Shown: piece after piece, positions 6,645 through 33,808 of the stretch
How positions within the stretch are numbered: position 1 is the stretch's first letter
Layout of the letters: each line of letters starts with the position of its first letter
Assembly: GCA_017465825.1 (NCBI GenBank)
Contig: JAFTVI010000034.1
Span: forward strand, 1-64,000
Reading direction: 5' to 3'
Length of the DNA stretch: 64,000 nt
Origin: Clostridia bacterium
Lineage (GTDB): Bacteria > Bacillota > Clostridia > Oscillospirales > Acutalibacteraceae
Made by a program: the position numbers and the translations under genes
The notes under the pieces: generated by a model
The model's database searches: none
Told to the model about the DNA's origin: nothing
Seen by the model: only the letters and a program-made list of their open reading frames with translations

Positions 6645-6930
6645 AAATTTAATAACAACAAACCGTTGAGGCGGAGATAACGGCAATAATGCCTTCACAG
6701 AGAGCCTGTGTTGCTGAGAGTCAGGTAAGAAACAAGTTGTCAAATGGACCGCTGAGGGTGCAGTCAAATGGATTTTCCAAAGTATTCTGCAACGAGAAGA
6801 TATGCGTTAGTTATCGGGGATATAGTAGTATTCTGCTGAGTGTGTGAGGGCAACCTCACAAAACAAGGTGGCACCACGGATAAGTTTATTCGTCCTTGAC
6901 AGAAAAAGATTCTGTCGGGGACTTTTTATT
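6645..6930 (+). promoter_or_regulatory. T-box riboswitch, tryptophan specifier, with terminator
   Basis: A leader of nearly 300 bases. The distal part of stem I has the typical AGAGAGCC element near 6700. The specifier side has AAATGGACC, placing a UGG (Trp) codon at 6745-6747 followed by the usual purine. The conserved T-box sequence AAGGTGGCACCACGG is at 6865-6879. An intrinsic terminator follows: GTCCTTGACAGAA paired with TTCTGTCGGGGAC, then a T-run, 6892-6927. Uncharged tRNA-Trp should stabilise the antiterminator and allow trpB transcription. The specifier agrees with the downstream gene product. It fills most of the roughly 540-base gap between the MarR and trpB genes. Confidence 0.93.
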
Positions 6931-27466: not shown

Positions 27467-28934
27467 ATTTAATCAAACCAAACACATCTTTTACGGCAGG
27501 ATAAATGTTTTTGAATTTATTGTACTGTTGTTCGTACCTTGCGGCAATTTCAGCATCGGGAGTAACTACACAGGCTGTTTTTGCAAAAGATTCTGCACAG
27601 TCTTTTACTGATTCAAAGTCACCGTTGCCTACCATTGCAAGCAAAGCACCGCCAAAGCTGGGTCCTTCCTCCGTAACGGGAATTTCGAGAGTTATATTAA
27701 GCACATTTGCAAGGATTTTTCGCCATAAAGCAGACTTTGCACCGCCGCCGCAAAAACCGCTTTTTTCTATACTTATGCCTGCATTTTTTACAATTTCAAT
27801 ATTATCCCTTATAGCAAACGCAACGCCTTCAAGCACAGCCTGCACCATACTCTCGCGTTTTGTGTCAAGACTCATACCAATAAAAGTACCTCTTGCATCG
27901 GTATTATTGATAGGACTGCGCTCACCCATAAGATATGGCAAAAAGTATACATTATTATTGCCAAGCATATCATCGCTGATTCCGATCTGTTCAGCTGAAT
28001 AATCATCAGTGCCGAGAATATCGGTACAGAACCATTTGTTGCAAACTGCAGCAGAAAGAATACAGCCCATTATGTGCCAACCGCCGTCTGCGTGGCAGAA
28101 TGTGTGAATAGCTTTATTTGTAAGCTCAGGGAATTTTTCAGATGAAATAAACACCGTACCTGACGTACCCAATGAAATGTTGCATTTGCCGTCGGACACG
28201 GTAGCACTGCCCACAGCCGCGCCAGCATTATCACCTGCACCTGCAACTACTTTTACACTGTCGGGCAAGCCTAAAAGTGCTGCAATATCGGCCTTGATTG
28301 TACCTATAACATCGTAGCTATCAAAAAGATGCGGCATCTGCTGTTCGGTAATGCCGCAAATTTGAAGCATTTCCTTTGACCAGCATTTATTTTTCACATC
28401 AAGCAAGAGCATTCCCGACGCATCTGAATAATCTGTACAATGAACACCAGTTAGCAGATAATTTATATAGTCTTTGGGCAACATTATTTTGCTGATTTTA
28501 TTGAAATTATCCGGCTCATTTTCTTTAAGCCAAAGAATTTTGGGGGCTGTAAAGCCTGCAAACGCCATGTTTGCAGTATAATCCGCAAGCTCCTTAACTG
28601 TGTTAAGATATGCAGTTTCTTTGTCCGTTCTGCCGTCGTTCCACAGGATAGCATTGCGGATGACATTATCATTTTCATCAAGAATCACAAGACCGTGCAT
28701 CTGCCCTGCGATGCCAAGACTGCAGACGGACGATGCGTCAATATCTGCCACAAGCTCCCTTATGCCCTCAACAAATGCAAGCCACCAATCACGCGGATTC
28801 TGCTCACTCCAGCCGACCTGAGGATAAAAAAGGTCGTAAGATTTTGAAACCGAGTTTACAATTTCACCTTTAACATTTACAAGTGATAGCTTCAATGATG
28901 ATGTGCCTAAATCCGCACCGATATAATAATTCAT
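27465..28934 (-). CDS. xylB: Xylulokinase (FGGY family)
   Basis: A 489-residue FGGY kinase, phosphorylating D-xylulose to xylulose 5-phosphate. ADLGTSSLKLSLV is the first phosphate loop; GWSEQNPRDWW, CSLGIAGQMHGLV, NAILWNDGRTDKE, SLGTSGTVF and GVAFAIRDN are close to xylulokinase. The start follows AAGGAGTAATTAT. No xylose isomerase, transporter or XylR is adjacent, so the true substrate could be another ketose. An inverted repeat (28992-29025) abuts its -35 box. Confidence 0.88.
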   Translation of the reverse strand: MNYYIGADLGTSSLKLSLVNVKGEIVNSVSKSYDLFYPQVGWSEQNPRDWWLAFVEGIRELVADIDASSVCSLGIAGQMHGLVILDENDNVIRNAILWNDGRTDKETAYLNTVKELADYTANMAFAGFTAPKILWLKENEPDNFNKISKIMLPKDYINYLLTGVHCTDYSDASGMLLLDVKNKCWSKEMLQICGITEQQMPHLFDSYDVIGTIKADIAALLGLPDSVKVVAGAGDNAGAAVGSATVSDGKCNISLGTSGTVFISSEKFPELTNKAIHTFCHADGGWHIMGCILSAAVCNKWFCTDILGTDDYSAEQIGISDDMLGNNNVYFLPYLMGERSPINNTDARGTFIGMSLDTKRESMVQAVLEGVAFAIRDNIEIVKNAGISIEKSGFCGGGAKSALWRKILANVLNITLEIPVTEEGPSFGGALLAMVGNGDFESVKDCAESFAKTACVVTPDAEIAARYEQQYNKFKNIYPAVKDVFGLIK

Positions 28935-28962
28935 ATAATTACTCCTTGAAAGAATTTATTAT

Positions 28963-28991
28963 ATATTATCATATCAGTAAGAAATTGGCAA
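28963..28991 (-). promoter_or_regulatory. Promoter of xylB
   Basis: Minus strand TTGCCA (28986-28991), 17-bp spacer, TAATAT (28963-28968). Confidence 0.65.
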
Positions 28992-29025
28992 GTGCTTACA
29001 ATAAGAATAAATTTATTGCAAGCAC
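28992..29025. repeat. Inverted repeat between the CFI-box operon end and xylB promoter
   Basis: Thirteen-base arms GTGCTTACAATAA (28992-29004) and TTATTGCAAGCAC (29013-29025) with one G-U-compatible mismatch. It directly abuts the xylB -35 box. It may terminate the upstream CFI-box operon or act as an operator for xylB; a clear T-run is lacking. Confidence 0.6.
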
Positions 29026-29044
29026 CTATTACTTAATTTTTTAT

Positions 29045-30118
29045 TTAATCATAATATGGTGTTGATTCAACTCCATCTGCTTGTAAGTCAGCAATCATTC
29101 GATCTAACTTACCTTTCCACATTTTTTTAAACCATTCAGTATGTCCAAACCATTTTACGATAGTGGGACTGATTGCATAATATGTTTTAATAAATGTTCT
29201 ACCATACCAAGTTTTTGCAAGAGTGTAATCACGATAACGACGAAGTGTCCAAACTTCGGGACAATCATACGAACCATATACTGAGGTTGCCACATAGCAA
29301 CCTCCTTTTTTGTCAGATCTCTGTTCTTTATTTTTATTAGTATTCTCAGTATTATTTTGAACTGAATCCGATTTAAATCCACATTGCTTTACTATATAAT
29401 CATCTAAATTCTGAACAAGCATATTATGATAAGCAAGTTTATTATTATACAATACTACTCCTGTTGTTACAAAACAAGGAAGTCTATCCTCAAAAGCATT
29501 AGTTGATGGTAATGTTTTTTTACAAGTACTTAATCTTTTGATTTCATTATATTCAGATTTTATAGTATTTATCGGTAAAGAAGGTATAGAAGAAATAATT
29601 TTCACCCATTCACACATCAATCCTGCGATATAAGGTCCACTATTTGTTGGTAAATCTGTAGCATTTTTCAGCAAAGCAAATATTTGTGCCTTTAAAGACT
29701 TATATATATCTAGTGCAACATTTCCCTTATCATCAGCGAGTGCGACAGCACGCTTTGCATACGCTAATGCTTTGTCAAGTTTTGGATCTTTCAAACTTGA
29801 TTCCCAGCCAGCTGATTTTGCCATTAACAAATATCCTTCACATCTATCAGAATCTAATTCAAGGATTTTTTCTGCATATTTGATAACACTGGTAGAATCT
29901 TTTCCCTCTACGGCAACTTCCGCTAACAACATAAAGTTTGCAATCGATTTTGAGTTATCAACTTTTATTGTACTGCCTGATACATCAACAGTACCCTCAA
30001 TCATCATTTTCTTTGCTTCTTCTACAGAATATTTCATTCCGCAGTTTTGGCATACAAACACACCATCCTGCTTAATAAGTTCTGTTCCTCCGCACATTTC
30101 ACAAGTTAATTGTTTCAT
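29045..30118 (-). CDS. Zinc-ribbon / helical-repeat / CFI-box C-terminal domain protein
   Basis: A 357-residue protein. Residues 6-26 form a zinc ribbon (CEMC...CQNC, C6, C9, C23, C26). The middle, about 60-150, looks like TPR helices (KYAEKILELDSDRCEGYLLM, ALAYAKRAVALADDKG). A polar linker with many Asn and Lys follows. The last 84 residues begin CYVATSVYGSYDCPEV and continue LRRYRDYTLAKTWYGR, which I recognise as a CFI-box (C-[FY]-[IV]-A-T-x2-YG) C-terminal domain, with amphipathic or hydrophobic stretches suggesting membrane contact. It is the last gene of the SPFH operon, 15 bp after the 70-aa gene. Function unknown. Confidence 0.8.
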   Translation of the reverse strand: MKQLTCEMCGGTELIKQDGVFVCQNCGMKYSVEEAKKMMIEGTVDVSGSTIKVDNSKSIANFMLLAEVAVEGKDSTSVIKYAEKILELDSDRCEGYLLMAKSAGWESSLKDPKLDKALAYAKRAVALADDKGNVALDIYKSLKAQIFALLKNATDLPTNSGPYIAGLMCEWVKIISSIPSLPINTIKSEYNEIKRLSTCKKTLPSTNAFEDRLPCFVTTGVVLYNNKLAYHNMLVQNLDDYIVKQCGFKSDSVQNNTENTNKNKEQRSDKKGGCYVATSVYGSYDCPEVWTLRRYRDYTLAKTWYGRTFIKTYYAISPTIVKWFGHTEWFKKMWKGKLDRMIADLQADGVESTPYYD

Positions 30119-30133
30119 TTTTTTACCTCTCTT

Positions 30134-30346
30134 TTATATTATAATTTCAAGTAAACCTTTTCCGCTTACTTTTATGTTTTTAAAAATTTTTAATTCATTT
30201 AAAATTTTTATACACTCACTATTACCTTCACTAGAATTAGGAAAACCATAATCATTTGGTCGTATCCATAACTGACCATCGTTGTTATTTGATGCTTTTC
30301 TATAAATGTCATCTATCATTTTCTGCTTTTGTTCCTCGGTAATCAT
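30134..30346 (-). CDS. Small protein of unknown function (70 aa)
   Basis: A 70-residue soluble, mixed-charge protein (MITEEQKQKMIDDIYRK at the start, GKGLLEIII at the end). I recognise no domain. It starts two bases after the stop of the four-TM protein and 15 bp before the CFI-box gene, so it is translated as part of the SPFH operon. The tight spacing is the main support for it being real. Confidence 0.65.
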   Translation of the reverse strand: MITEEQKQKMIDDIYRKASNNNDGQLWIRPNDYGFPNSSEGNSECIKILNELKIFKNIKVSGKGLLEIII

Positions 30347-30348
30347 TT

Positions 30349-31023
30349 TTATTCACCCTTTAATAATTTTACTTTTTTATTTCTCTCTGTCAAAAGCGTT
30401 TCTATTTCTTTTACGCTTTCGGTTTTTTTATCGGTTATTTTGAGTTCTGCTATTTTGCTGTTAATTTCTATTTCAATATCAATAAGTTCATTATTGCTCA
30501 TAGGGTCGCTGAAACGTATTTTTTCGGCAAGCTGCTTCAGCAATTCCCTCATATCTTCGTCAATTTCGTTCTCGGCAATCATTTCAACATCAGTCTGAAG
30601 TGATTTGATATAAAAAACTTTCTTTTCAATCTTTGGTTCAACTCGGTTGATTTCATTTTTACCGACTTCTGTTCCAATCAAGAATATTGCTGAGATTCCG
30701 AGTATAAAGGCACATACTACAACAGCAATCCACATCTGTGTCAACGGATAAGCCATAAATACAGAGAAAGCAATAATCTGAATAATTAAATATATAATTC
30801 CGACAGCAACAAGCGGAATACCAAGAAATTTACTTTTAATTTTATCTGAGCCTTTGAATGCATAGATCCAAACACCAATTTGCAATACAAACGCTATAAC
30901 AGTAAATACATAAGCAATCCAAAAAGTTGATGTTTTTGCAGTGGGAATAACAAATGCAATCACATTGAATAATATAAACACAACGCCTAACGCGGCATAA
31001 CACATTACTTTATTTTTTCTCAT
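30349..31023 (-). CDS. Four-TM membrane protein with cytoplasmic coiled-coil tail
   Basis: A 224-residue protein with four hydrophobic helices in the first 120 residues (about 8-27, 35-55, 68-90, 97-117), then a charged helical tail with heptad-like Leu/Ile spacing (IDEDMRELLKQLAEKIRF, IDIEIEINSKIAELKI). No enzyme motif is visible. The ATG at 31023 lies three bases after the SPFH stop, whose 3' end supplies a GGGAG ribosome site. It is probably the membrane anchor or partner of the SPFH protein. Confidence 0.8.
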   Translation of the reverse strand: MRKNKVMCYAALGVVFILFNVIAFVIPTAKTSTFWIAYVFTVIAFVLQIGVWIYAFKGSDKIKSKFLGIPLVAVGIIYLIIQIIAFSVFMAYPLTQMWIAVVVCAFILGISAIFLIGTEVGKNEINRVEPKIEKKVFYIKSLQTDVEMIAENEIDEDMRELLKQLAEKIRFSDPMSNNELIDIEIEINSKIAELKITDKKTESVKEIETLLTERNKKVKLLKGE

Positions 31024-31026
31024 TAA

Positions 31027-32193
31027 TTAACTCTCCCTTTTCGTACCGCACTTAGGGCAGAACTTGCCCGGTTTGATAAACTTAAATCCGCAGTTGCTGC
31101 AATTATCGGGAGATGACTGCGGCGTTCCGCACTCATCACAATATGCTGCACCGGGTGTTAGTTTTGCTCCACAGTTTTCGCAAAAGAGATTCCCTGCTTG
31201 CGGTTGTGTCGGAACTGCAACAAATGCATCATTTACTGCACCGCTGACCATACCGCCTACTGTGCCGCCGATTCCTGACATAACACCAAGACCGATACCC
31301 ATATTTGTAAATTCTCCAACACCTTCGTTTTGTGCGGCTTGTTCAGCGACATCAAAACCTCGCTCCTGCTGATATGTATAGCCTTCAGTCGCACGCTTCT
31401 GCGCCAATGCCTGTGACTCAATAACGGTCTTTTGGGCTTCAGTCTGCGCATAAATTACATCGGTCTGTTGTTTTAACCTTGCTTCTGCAATATCTGCATA
31501 CTGACGGAAATGCAGCTCCTTGAATTTTTCATATTGAGGATCACCGTCAGGTTTTACTATGGTAGTTACAAAGAAGCGATTTAACGTAACGCCATATTCT
31601 TCAAAATCACCAATCAAACGAGCCTGTATGCCTTTGGAGAAAATTTCAAGTCTTTCATCAATTTCAAAAATATTGATAGCGCTCGCTTTCATTTCCTGAG
31701 CTATGTAGGTTTTTACCCTTGCCATCAAGAATGCACGGAAGAATGTTGTGAGTTGATTTCTGTCAAGAATACATTCTGTGCCTACAAGTTTTATTAATAA
31801 TTTGCGAGAGTCCTCAACACTGAGAGACATTTCACCGGATGCGCCAATGGATAACGGAAACTTGTACGTAGGTTCAACATACTGTACCTTGCTGTCAGTT
31901 CCCCACTTAATAGCCATTTGCTCTGTTTTGTTTATAAAATAGACTTCGCAATGAAATGGTGTTTCACCATCGGTAGGAATATTAATAAATTTACGAATCA
32001 GCGGAATATTTTGTGTTTCAAGAGTATGACGCCCCGGACCAAACAAGTCGAGTGCCTGTCCGTTCATAAAAAATATTGATTCCTGACTTTCGTGTACTAT
32101 CAACTGTGTTGTAGTGTTAAAATCCTCGCACGGATGCTTCCAGATAAATGTACTGTTATCTCCTTCGTATTTAATTATTTGGGAAATATGCAA
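31027..32193 (-). CDS. SPFH-domain protein with C-terminal double zinc ribbon (YdjI-like)
   Basis: A 388-residue protein. Residues 1-250 match the SPFH class of the YdjI / 'virion core protein' type: ESQESIFFMNGQALDLFGPG, HTLETQNIPLIRKF and FFRAFLMARVKTYIAQEM. Then come a coiled-coil (QYADIAEARLKQQTDVIYAQ), a Gly-rich segment, and two zinc ribbons (CENC...CDEC, CSNC...CPKC) from residue 338. SPFH proteins oligomerise on membranes. I assign a TTG start at 32193 nine bases after GGAG; an ATG seven bases upstream is out of frame. It heads a four-gene operon from a consensus promoter and is divergent from an XRE gene. Confidence 0.88.
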   Translation of the reverse strand: MHISQIIKYEGDNSTFIWKHPCEDFNTTTQLIVHESQESIFFMNGQALDLFGPGRHTLETQNIPLIRKFINIPTDGETPFHCEVYFINKTEQMAIKWGTDSKVQYVEPTYKFPLSIGASGEMSLSVEDSRKLLIKLVGTECILDRNQLTTFFRAFLMARVKTYIAQEMKASAINIFEIDERLEIFSKGIQARLIGDFEEYGVTLNRFFVTTIVKPDGDPQYEKFKELHFRQYADIAEARLKQQTDVIYAQTEAQKTVIESQALAQKRATEGYTYQQERGFDVAEQAAQNEGVGEFTNMGIGLGVMSGIGGTVGGMVSGAVNDAFVAVPTQPQAGNLFCENCGAKLTPGAAYCDECGTPQSSPDNCSNCGFKFIKPGKFCPKCGTKRES

Positions 32194-32222
32194 TTTTCAT
32201 CACTCCTGCCACAAAACGACAA

Positions 32223-32290
32223 ATTCTTATCTTTAACACAATTATAAGTCAAAAAAATGTTAATGTCAAGATATATTCCTATCTTTAACA
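32223..32290 (-). promoter_or_regulatory. SPFH-operon promoter bracketed by operator-like direct repeats
   Basis: Minus strand TTGACA (32264-32269), 17-bp spacer, TATAAT (32241-32246). ATTCTTATCTTTAACA (32223-32238) lies just downstream of -10, and ATTCCTATCTTTAACA (32275-32290), identical at 15 of 16 bases, lies six bases upstream of -35. The repeats are 52 bp apart, about five helical turns. They sit between the SPFH operon and the XRE gene, so the XRE protein is the obvious candidate ligand. Confidence 0.8.
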
Positions 32291-32309
32291 TATCGGAGAT
32301 GAAAATCAT

Positions 32310-32549
32310 ATGAAAATCTATGACTACAACGGTAAAAAAAACATATGCGGTGACAGAGTTCACGAAGCAAGATGTAAGTTAAGATTGACTCAAAGTGATT
32401 TAGCTGCTCAACTGCAAATCAACGGAATCAATATTGAACGCGACAGTGTTTCAAGAATTGAAATCGGAACAAGATTTGTTGCTGATTATGAATTACGAGA
32501 ACTGTCAAAAATTTTAAAAGTTTCTGTCGATTGGTTATTGGGAGATTGA
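32310..32549 (+). CDS. XRE family transcriptional regulator (79 aa)
   Basis: A 79-residue protein made almost entirely of one XRE helix-turn-helix: GDRVHEARCKLRLTQSDLAAQL, INIERDSVSRIEIGTRFVAD, LRELSKILKVSVDWLLGD. There is no sensor domain. The start follows CGGAG at about 11 bases. It is divergent from the SPFH operon, and the shared gap contains the paired 16-base repeats. It ends at a terminator shared with spoIVB. Confidence 0.9.
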   Translation: MKIYDYNGKKNICGDRVHEARCKLRLTQSDLAAQLQINGINIERDSVSRIEIGTRFVADYELRELSKILKVSVDWLLGD

Positions 32550-32554
32550 TTAAG

Positions 32555-32588
32555 AAAACAGCAAGTCGGTTGGCTTGCTGTTTTATAT
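32555..32588. terminator. Bidirectional terminator between XRE gene and spoIVB
   Basis: Perfect 11-bp stem AAAACAGCAAG / CTTGCTGTTTT, loop TCGGTTGG, with T-runs on both strands. Confidence 0.9.
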
Positions 32589-33808
32589 TACCGTTTTTCA
32601 ACATCTATAATACTGTCCGCTGTATCAATCATTGTTTCTGCGAAGATTGCGTAGCCTCTGGTCGGGTCGTTAAGGAAGACGTGGGTTACTGCGCCGATGA
32701 GCATTCCGTCCTGCACGATGGGACTGCCGCTCATTCCCTGCACGATGCCGCCTGTTGTGTTCAATAATTCGTCATCTGTTATCTCTATAACCATTGAACG
32801 TGACTGTTTTTCGGCACTGTAAGAAATTTTTTCAATTTCAATATCGTAATATTTCACGCCGTTACCGTCAATATTACACAATATCTGCGCATCCCCTGCT
32901 TTTATTTCCGTCTGCGTTGCAACAGCCATAAGCTCCCCTGTCAATTCATCGTTTTCCGAATAAGTGCCGTACACTCCGAATTCATTATTTTCAATCAATT
33001 CTCCCAATGTTTTATCGGCAAACGAACCAAGGAGCTGACCTGTCGCGCCTTTTTCACCTTTTGTTATACCTGTTACCGTTGCGGTAAGTATATCTCCATC
33101 ACCTACGGTCAGAACAGACTGAGTTTCGCTGTCACATATAGAATGTCCCAACGCCGCAAAAACGCCCGATTCGGGGTCAACAAATGTCATTGTGCCGATT
33201 CCTGCTGTTGAATCTCGTAGCCACAGTCCGCAACGGTATTTATCTTCCGATTCGCAATATGCAGGAGTAAGAGAGAAATATAATGTTTTATTATCACGCA
33301 CAGCGGTTATGCTTACGGAATTTCCTTTTGAATTTGTAATATACTGTGAAAAATCAGCTACAGAAACGACCTTTTCATCATTTACCTGAGTAATTATATC
33401 TCCCGTCTGCAAGCCGCATACAGTTGCAGGACTTACGTTTCCGTCTTCCGTTACAACATCTTCCACCCCGACAATCAGCAAACCGTCTGTATAAAGGCAA
33501 ATTCCGATTATATCACCGCTGACATTGACATATTTTCGCTCGCCGTTTTCCGCTTTAACAGTTCTTACGGGAATAATACCTAACAGACTTGCTTCGGCAA
33601 CAGAATTTTCAGTTCCGTTTGTTGATACGCTCATAACGCTGTCATCGGTTTTATTTACAGTAAAAACTTCATACAGAGTTGTTTTTTCATTGCCGTCAAA
33701 AAATACTACCTTATCAGGCAGATATATCTGTCCCAGTGCAACAAGACAAAACACAACAGAACAGAACACTGACAGCACTATATCAAATTGTTTTATAAAT
33801 TTTTTCAT
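32588..33808 (-). CDS. spoIVB: SpoIVB peptidase (stage IV sporulation serine protease)
   Basis: A 406-residue S55-family protease. It has an N-terminal membrane anchor (about 8-28), a PDZ domain (ATVCGLQTGDIITQVNDEKV), and a trypsin-like domain with the catalytic His in ALGHSICD (near residue 220) and the Ser in GMSGSPIVQDGMLIGAV (near 360). In Bacillus, SpoIVB is made in the forespore and cuts SpoIVFA to trigger sigma-K processing. Its presence shows the organism carries a sporulation programme. The start follows CGGAGGTGCATT. I see no clear sigma-A promoter upstream, consistent with a forespore sigma factor, but I could not fix that promoter. Confidence 0.93.
   Translation of the reverse strand: MKKFIKQFDIVLSVFCSVVFCLVALGQIYLPDKVVFFDGNEKTTLYEVFTVNKTDDSVMSVSTNGTENSVAEASLLGIIPVRTVKAENGERKYVNVSGDIIGICLYTDGLLIVGVEDVVTEDGNVSPATVCGLQTGDIITQVNDEKVVSVADFSQYITNSKGNSVSITAVRDNKTLYFSLTPAYCESEDKYRCGLWLRDSTAGIGTMTFVDPESGVFAALGHSICDSETQSVLTVGDGDILTATVTGITKGEKGATGQLLGSFADKTLGELIENNEFGVYGTYSENDELTGELMAVATQTEIKAGDAQILCNIDGNGVKYYDIEIEKISYSAEKQSRSMVIEITDDELLNTTGGIVQGMSGSPIVQDGMLIGAVTHVFLNDPTRGYAIFAETMIDTADSIIDVEKR

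Follow-up and report, generated by a model that had tools for sequence, protein, structure and literature searches.

A divergently XRE-flanked SPFH/four-TM operon with an exchangeable zinc-ribbon gene in a Clostridia bacterium, a candidate allele of a membrane-tethered conflict cassette

We analysed a compact operon in a 64,000-nucleotide (nt) stretch of a Clostridia bacterium (contig JAFTVI010000034.1 of assembly GCA_017465825.1, positions 1 to 64,000; hereafter the window), whose genome assembly comprises 2.2 Mb in 37 contigs and is 87% complete. Four genes on the minus strand encode, in order, an SPFH protein (Band_7_1, YdjI-like) of 388 amino acids (aa) with a C-terminal double zinc ribbon (31027..32193), a 224-aa protein with four transmembrane segments (four-TM) and a conserved hydrophilic tail (30349..31023), a 70-aa protein in a variable small-gene position (30134..30346), and a 357-aa protein with an N-terminal zinc ribbon, TPR-like helices and a C-terminal CFI-box (the CFI protein; 29045..30118), which occupies the position that we call slot 3. 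A 79-aa XRE-family helix-turn-helix (HTH) regulator is encoded divergently on the plus strand (32310..32549). An earlier reading made from the letters alone (the sequence-only reading) had described these five genes as four co-directional genes with gaps of 2-15 nt and an XRE gene facing them, and this arrangement was confirmed, coordinates included, with intergenic gaps of 3, 2 and 15 nt from the SPFH through the four-TM and 70-aa genes to the CFI gene. A purine-rich stretch precedes the start of every operon gene, and the SPFH start codon is a TTG located 9 nt downstream of GGAG. Directly 3' of the last gene lies a candidate terminator hairpin (28989..29028, minus strand), which has a 16-pair stem with only four G-C pairs and a weak T tract. 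The operon is flanked by genes for an FGGY sugar kinase and SpoIVB.

Profile searches revealed known families at both ends of the operon. The SPFH protein matched Band_7_1 (PF13421, E 9.8e-33) and the double zinc ribbon PF12773 (E 1.4e-8); a strongly hydrophobic stretch is absent and no clear transmembrane segment was seen. The CFI protein matched the NCBIfam model NF041770 (CFI_box_CTERM) over residues 274-342 (E 6.9e-21, 73.8 bits, cut-off 40), with alignments extending the CFI-box to approximately residues 272-357, and its TPR-like repeat was supported by PDB profile matches, mainly to designed TPR proteins. Further PDB matches of this protein to sliding clamps (E 0.037-0.04) and to an HA2 chain (0.098) were judged to be chance, as was a weak match of the four-TM protein to one coiled-coil design (E 0.018). 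Hydropathy of the four-TM protein peaks at about residues 8, 35, 71 (with a shoulder at 79) and 99, followed by the hydrophilic tail, and no Pfam family exceeded the cut-off for this protein. The 70-aa protein matched no family in Pfam, NCBIfam or PADLOC, and the XRE protein matched HTH_3 (E 1.6e-5, 25.3 bits, cut-off 23). PADLOC returned nothing for the SPFH, 70-aa and CFI proteins, weak matches for the four-TM protein, and generic HTH matches for the XRE protein.

Upstream of the SPFH gene we identified a promoter-operator region (32228..32290, minus strand), in which a TTGACA-17-TATAAT promoter (32269-32241) is combined with XRE-type boxes. The promoter is a 12/12 sigma-70 match and the only such match in the scanned stretch 28900-32700. 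Two exact TGTTAAAGATA boxes, the only ones in the whole window, flank it at 32280-32290 and 32228-32238, and a third box, inverted and imperfect, overlaps the -35 element. This layout is kept in two of the related loci described below, L123 (on the same contig as L079) and, with changes in the boxes, L138; both carry the same XRE type as the window, with a homologue 87% identical in the same place in L079 and a close homologue in L138. Because the box layout is conserved in loci with the same XRE type, these observations support, without proving, a direct repression of the promoter by the XRE protein. Of 78 related SPFH genes, 19 also have a near-consensus promoter (spacer 16-18, no more than one mismatch) in the 180 nt upstream, compared to 0.33% of mononucleotide shuffles.

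To establish which parts of the operon are conserved, GTDB species genomes were scanned with an SPFH alignment, which yielded 491 related loci; the best 80 of these (L119-L198) were analysed, with the window locus designated L032. The sequence-only reading had proposed scoring co-occurrence of the four genes, and in this comparison the four-TM match started at most 150 nt from the SPFH end in 78 of the 80 loci, the exceptions being L153, where a slot-3 gene intervenes, and L137, which is without a four-TM gene. Searching from the side of the four-TM protein, its profile was found at 18 places in 17 genomes among 118 relatives (window included), directly beside SPFH at 14 of them; at one further place the SPFH gene is two open reading frames (ORFs) away (L037/L088), at two the contig ends (L043, L045), and at one (L046/L230) SPFH was not found near the four-TM gene. 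Among 398 genomes of the phylum at least eight matched the four-TM profile, a lower bound because at most seven candidates were scored per genome, and SPFH was adjacent in five of the seven genomes other than the window's. In nine loci the four-TM protein is a short form without the tail (the profile match ends at 134-135). Zinc ribbons stand at the C-terminal end of SPFH in 83 of 85 loci, the five loci from viral contigs included. Thus, the operon is not one fixed four-gene system, as the sequence-only reading had it: the conserved core is SPFH plus four-TM, with a polymorphic third position and a variable 70-aa position. In the window the four-TM gene directly follows SPFH and is accompanied by a zinc-ribbon slot-3 gene, the composition by which we define the cassette.

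Titles of the related loci are mostly those of Clostridia or their families, with a few from Chloroflexi, Gastranaerophilales, Tannerellaceae and Desulfobulbaceae. Some of these non-Clostridia assignments are perhaps due to misbinning, since the Desulfobulbaceae locus L152 shares its SPFH sequence with the viral contig L199. L152, a contig of a metagenome-assembled genome, and L199, an IMG/VR contig, have identical SPFH sequences in the same operon layout, which may point to one shared mobile element or to contig misbinning. The loci L134 and L136 are near-copies of each other. Separately, a more distant SPFH-zinc ribbon gene stands beside a gene of ~1.5 thousand codons in two genomes (L115:8004-13792, L116:2834-8634); we read this neighbour as EssC-like (type VII secretion), and no four-TM match was found beside either of the two distant SPFH genes.

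A zinc-ribbon slot-3 gene was present in 74 of the 80 loci. By their ends these comprise 21 CFI-box proteins, 14 TIR proteins, one protein with both TIR and CFI-box, 36 other zinc-ribbon proteins and 2 with a TIR-type N-terminus only, with contig ends cutting slot 3 and leaving the class open in L158 and L196 (both counted as other) and L179 (N-terminus only). Of the six loci without a slot-3 type gene, L167 and L190 lie on contigs that end less than 100 nt past the four-TM gene, and in L126 this distance is 609 nt; the protein encoded in L184 and L189 begins with a zinc ribbon of another type, and L194 has none. Slot-3 type ORFs are strongly concentrated at the cassette, with 83 found within -3.5/+5 kb of SPFH (664 kb) compared to one outside (445 kb).

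The TIR_2 family was found in all nine TIR candidates examined, a tenth protein in that set (L079) being non-TIR, and the motif WVKNEW, whose glutamate we take to be the NADase residue, occurs in 15 of 16 TIR proteins. Some TIR proteins carry extra ends, namely an L7/L12 C-terminal domain, DUF6273 or RCC1. Among 34 slot-3 proteins without TIR or CFI-box, TPR_1 was detected in nine and the L7/L12 domain in two, and no enzyme family was found in this set; their consensus ends in charged sequence that is probably a coiled coil. In the window the CFI-box end occupies the position where TIR sits in other loci, and Pfam found no TIR in the window proteins. Treating CFI-box and TIR as strict alternatives is weakened by single proteins that combine zinc ribbon, TIR and C-terminal CFI-box (L100:8717-10876 and L153:10184-11902), the latter being the gene located between SPFH and four-TM.

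The CFI-box is highly conserved over ~85 residues in alignments and is the least understood part of the cassette: NF041770 names a domain only, and the name 'CFI-box' was not met in the literature searched. The sequence-only reading had considered the CFI protein and the 70-aa protein to be without counterparts. This did not hold for either, as 22 of 80 loci have a counterpart of the CFI protein at the corresponding position (one TIR fusion counted) and two of 80, L140 and L171, have a family member of the 70-aa protein, likewise at its corresponding position. In annotated phage records the CFI-box tail had one match, 46.6% identical, at CP069348.1:30711-30929, a Clostridioides element named pCD1602_4.

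We then asked how the slot-3 classes are distributed over a quick tree built from 85 SPFH rows. On this tree the three classes need 18 changes, compared to a shuffled mean of 33.0 (77 labelled rows), and 17 versus 32.3 when the cut proteins were left out (74 labelled rows). The CFI class accounts for 15 changes, at least 10 of which are forced by well-supported branches. Slot-3 class is therefore clustered on the SPFH tree but has repeatedly switched, mainly between CFI and other ends. Free switching among all classes was not observed: switches are frequent for CFI and other ends and infrequent for TIR. A mosaic is also visible within slot 3 itself, where 14 pairs hand-chosen among near neighbours are 82-97% identical over the first 40 residues and then in part fall to 35% or less, and in the four CFI-CFI pairs the CFI end again reaches 92-100% identity in its best window. 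This is the pattern of a putative conserved docking end combined with swappable parts.

The small-gene position, filled in the window by the 70-aa gene, holds different proteins elsewhere, including DUF1413 (in L147 by Pfam, in others by likeness), HTH_17 (L142 by Pfam), and wHTH-like and HEPN-like proteins. Nine small proteins are read as putative HEPN proteins because they share an RNxxAH motif; the HEPN family pEK499_p136 passed the Pfam cut-off in the L119 neighbour only, L200 fell below it and L139 gave no match. A PDB profile match of the HEPN-like set to an adhesin fragment (E 0.0046) was judged to be chance. Beside the core, Pfam identified Peptidase_C14/caspase (L174), SIR2_2 (L141), SduA_C/Shedu (L131), Mrr_cat (L129) and HipA_C (L182), as well as a RES domain just above the cut-off in the L120 neighbour. 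With the exception of L182, all loci with these conflict-type neighbours have a CFI or other end in slot 3. A SIR2/AbiH-like reading of a 505-aa protein in L152/L199 found no Pfam support, and neither did that in L157. Two near relatives of the window operon carry, directly after the four-TM gene, a family starting MNFDAV (L150:9759-11282, L126:10850-11434), whose 508-aa member in L150 had no Pfam match. Similar ~150-aa proteins lie right after the CFI gene in the close relatives L121 (3627-4085) and L122 (4420-4875), and Pfam gave no match for the L121 protein.

Relatives are also encoded in five loci of viral contigs, one of which (L203) is without four-TM. PHROGs searches of 34 ORFs from L199, L200, L202 and L203 gave terminase, portal, major head, endolysin and integrase families; since PHROGs returned families but not which ORF matched, phage assignments of single ORFs in L199-L203 were made by inspection. 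By this reading, L200 carries SPFH, four-TM, HEPN-like and CFI genes between terminase/portal-like and head/tail-like genes and near an abortive-infection-like gene, and in L202 SPFH, four-TM, HEPN-like and TIR genes follow tail-like, endolysin-like and invertase-like genes. Annotated phage records contained two weak SPFH matches, and plasmid records one close match among 22. The latter is pNP21 of Butyrivibrio fibrisolvens, a 20-kb plasmid that encodes SPFH, a four-TM gene spread over two reading frames (L237:7868-8646) and a slot-3 protein with a zinc ribbon; genes for a restriction S subunit, a recombinase and a YoeB toxin are close by. Plasmid records gave no match to the zinc ribbon-TIR part.

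The nearest known parallel proposed by the sequence-only reading was the Bacillus YdjFGHI set. YdjI is described as an SPFH protein with a zinc finger near its C-terminus and no membrane anchor, encoded beside two membrane proteins; these are reported to help in bringing PspA to the membrane, and B. subtilis pspA is under sigma-W control (PMC8581546). YdjG combines zinc ribbons with an NTF2-like domain and YdjH has a TPM domain (PMC11237479); the 'Tir' named in that PSP paper is the CesT/Tir chaperone and provides no link to TIR. The parallel stood with respect to SPFH, as the window protein is likewise a Band_7 protein with a C-terminal zinc ribbon in the YdjI-like Band_7_1 family. In contrast, the membrane partner in the window is a four-TM protein that has no Pfam assignment and precedes a polymorphic slot 3, and the operon carries an XRE-type operator instead of the sigma-W control reported for pspA. 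Pfam searches (E 0.1) detected neither a YdjH-type TPM nor a YdjG-type family on the four-TM, 70-aa or CFI protein. The absence of PspA claimed in the sequence-only reading was borne out, with no match to PF04012 in the window genome (87% complete) and a positive B. subtilis control. With no PspA found and another membrane partner, the operon is not a member of YdjFGHI, although it may share its membrane logic.

TIR domains are known from several bacterial immune systems, among them Thoeris and TIR-NLR. The cassette resembles these in that slot 3 carries TIR_2 with the glutamate-bearing motif in 15 of 80 loci (one fusion counted), and differs in that its TIR follows a zinc ribbon and has SPFH/four-TM as partners, with no TIR in the window allele or its clade. 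Conflict systems with a conserved core and variable effector-like components, in which zinc ribbons and transmembrane components are frequent, have been described (PMC7159879). These are NTP-dependent, for example GTPase-centred, unlike the cassette, and in the available part of that paper the sole mention of SPFH is in the reference list. No description of an SPFH/four-TM/slot-3 cassette was found in the literature searched, a search with most subscription papers and all preprints outside its scope. The family is widespread and not described in that literature, and within this scope the sequence-only reading of an undescribed membrane system was upheld for an operon that is both XRE-flanked and conserved.

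Taken together, these comparisons suggest, with a probability of about 0.5, that the operon is one allele of an XRE-repressed, membrane-tethered SPFH/four-TM conflict cassette with exchangeable ends, which is perhaps anti-phage. The sequence-only reading had left the choice between envelope stress and phage sensing to speculation; the comparative evidence leans to a conflict role because of the TIR, HEPN, SIR2, caspase and Shedu genes, the phage and plasmid copies and the exchanged ends. This argument rests on the kinds of domain and their placement and not on a tally. In such a cassette, the XRE protein would repress the operon promoter, and the four-TM protein would anchor SPFH oligomers at the inner membrane face, by analogy with the roles of YdjG/H for YdjI (PMC8581546). 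As its conserved N-terminus suggests, the slot-3 protein would dock on this scaffold through its zinc ribbon, with the SPFH zinc ribbons as a possible docking site. The exchangeable part (TIR in some loci, the CFI-box here) would be the effector or its partner-binding part, a role proposed because of TIR and the neighbouring genes, with the TIR ends probably NAD-consuming. The effector would then be assembled or freed by a cue from the membrane or the cell interior, for example phage infection. A further step, which we put forward tentatively and at well below even odds, is that the cassette represents a new class of bacterial immunity. In it, a flotillin-like SPFH assembly, anchored by its own four-TM protein, would act as the membrane sensor and dock exchangeable effectors (TIR, CFI-box and others) via a shared N-terminal zinc ribbon, and the CFI-box would be an effector domain, or one that activates effectors, not recognised before. 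Bacterial SPFH proteins have mostly been studied in membrane fluidity and envelope stress. If the proposal is true, an SPFH membrane scaffold would be tied to cell defence, offering a testable membrane platform for effector domains and a functional setting for the CFI-box.

Several results weigh against a conflict role. On the SPFH tree TIR requires only 3 changes and hardly occurs outside neighbouring clades; the 61-row clade to which the window belongs contains CFI and other ends but no TIR. Because TIR rarely switches and is missing from this clade, it says less about the window allele, and its near-confinement to clades other than the window's weakens both the cassette reading and the broader proposal of an immunity class. 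No known effector domain is present in the largest slot-3 class, and the window copy is without a cargo effector. CFI-box ends also lie under plasmid genes of other bacteria annotated as cold-shock, calcium-binding and CAP, as well as behind TIR, and for these reasons the CFI-box may serve in an accessory or binding role instead of being a toxin. Of 73 evaluable loci only 15 have a divergent HTH gene upstream, compared to 13 other matches in 964 kb, and this count is biased since the model was built from 13 of the 15 positive loci. When 57 unlabelled cargo genes of at least 90 aa, some of them mechanical ORF calls that may not be genes (e.g. in L166 and L193) and with L152/L199 counted twice, were compared with one random draw of 67 control genes from the same loci, PADLOC showed no enrichment (57 proteins and 32 families for cargo versus 67 proteins and 91 families for the control). 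Pfam at 1e-5 found a conflict-type domain in 6 of the 57 cargo proteins, and in the control resolvases in five and AAA_21 in two, a comparison that is incomplete in that 25 of the 91 control families were listed.

Some of these points fit a PspA-less envelope-stress complex, in which SPFH and four-TM would organise membrane domains like YdjGHI and the zinc-ribbon TPR proteins would serve as membrane-repair or protein-traffic adaptors. Such a complex would account for the commonest slot-3 class being without an enzyme domain, for the lack of TIR in the window's SPFH clade, and for a Band_7_1 protein with C-terminal zinc ribbons resembling YdjI, itself with two membrane partners (PMC8581546). 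However, no PspA was found in the window genome, and the patchy distribution, phage-adjacent and plasmid copies, exchanged ends and caspase, HEPN, SIR2, RES and Shedu neighbours would all be unusual for a housekeeping stress operon, so that we regard this explanation as possible but doubtful. The copies next to phage genes (L200, L202) and the one on a 20-kb plasmid that also carries a toxin-antitoxin pair could instead reflect a selfish exclusion cassette, carried by prophages and plasmids to exclude competitors with host benefit secondary; with only five loci on viral contigs, two weak matches in phage records and one close match of 22 in plasmid records, against 491 loci on genome contigs, whether chromosomal or not, this appears rather improbable. 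Finally, relatives also encode zinc-ribbon/CFI proteins at a distance from SPFH/four-TM, as would be expected if SPFH and zinc-ribbon TPR families were simply common in gut Clostridia and stood side by side without shared function, but the 83 versus 1 slot-3 type ORFs near SPFH and elsewhere and the adjacency of SPFH and four-TM in 78 of 80 loci contradict this notion, to which we give hardly any credence.

An empty-site comparison for the operon failed, with xylB near spoIVB in none of eight stretches of the same genus; prmA adjoins spoIVB in five of these eight. Elsewhere in the window, a T-box leader was detected at 6657-6900 on the plus strand (Rfam RF00230, 98 bits), the window's only Rfam match at the gathering threshold.

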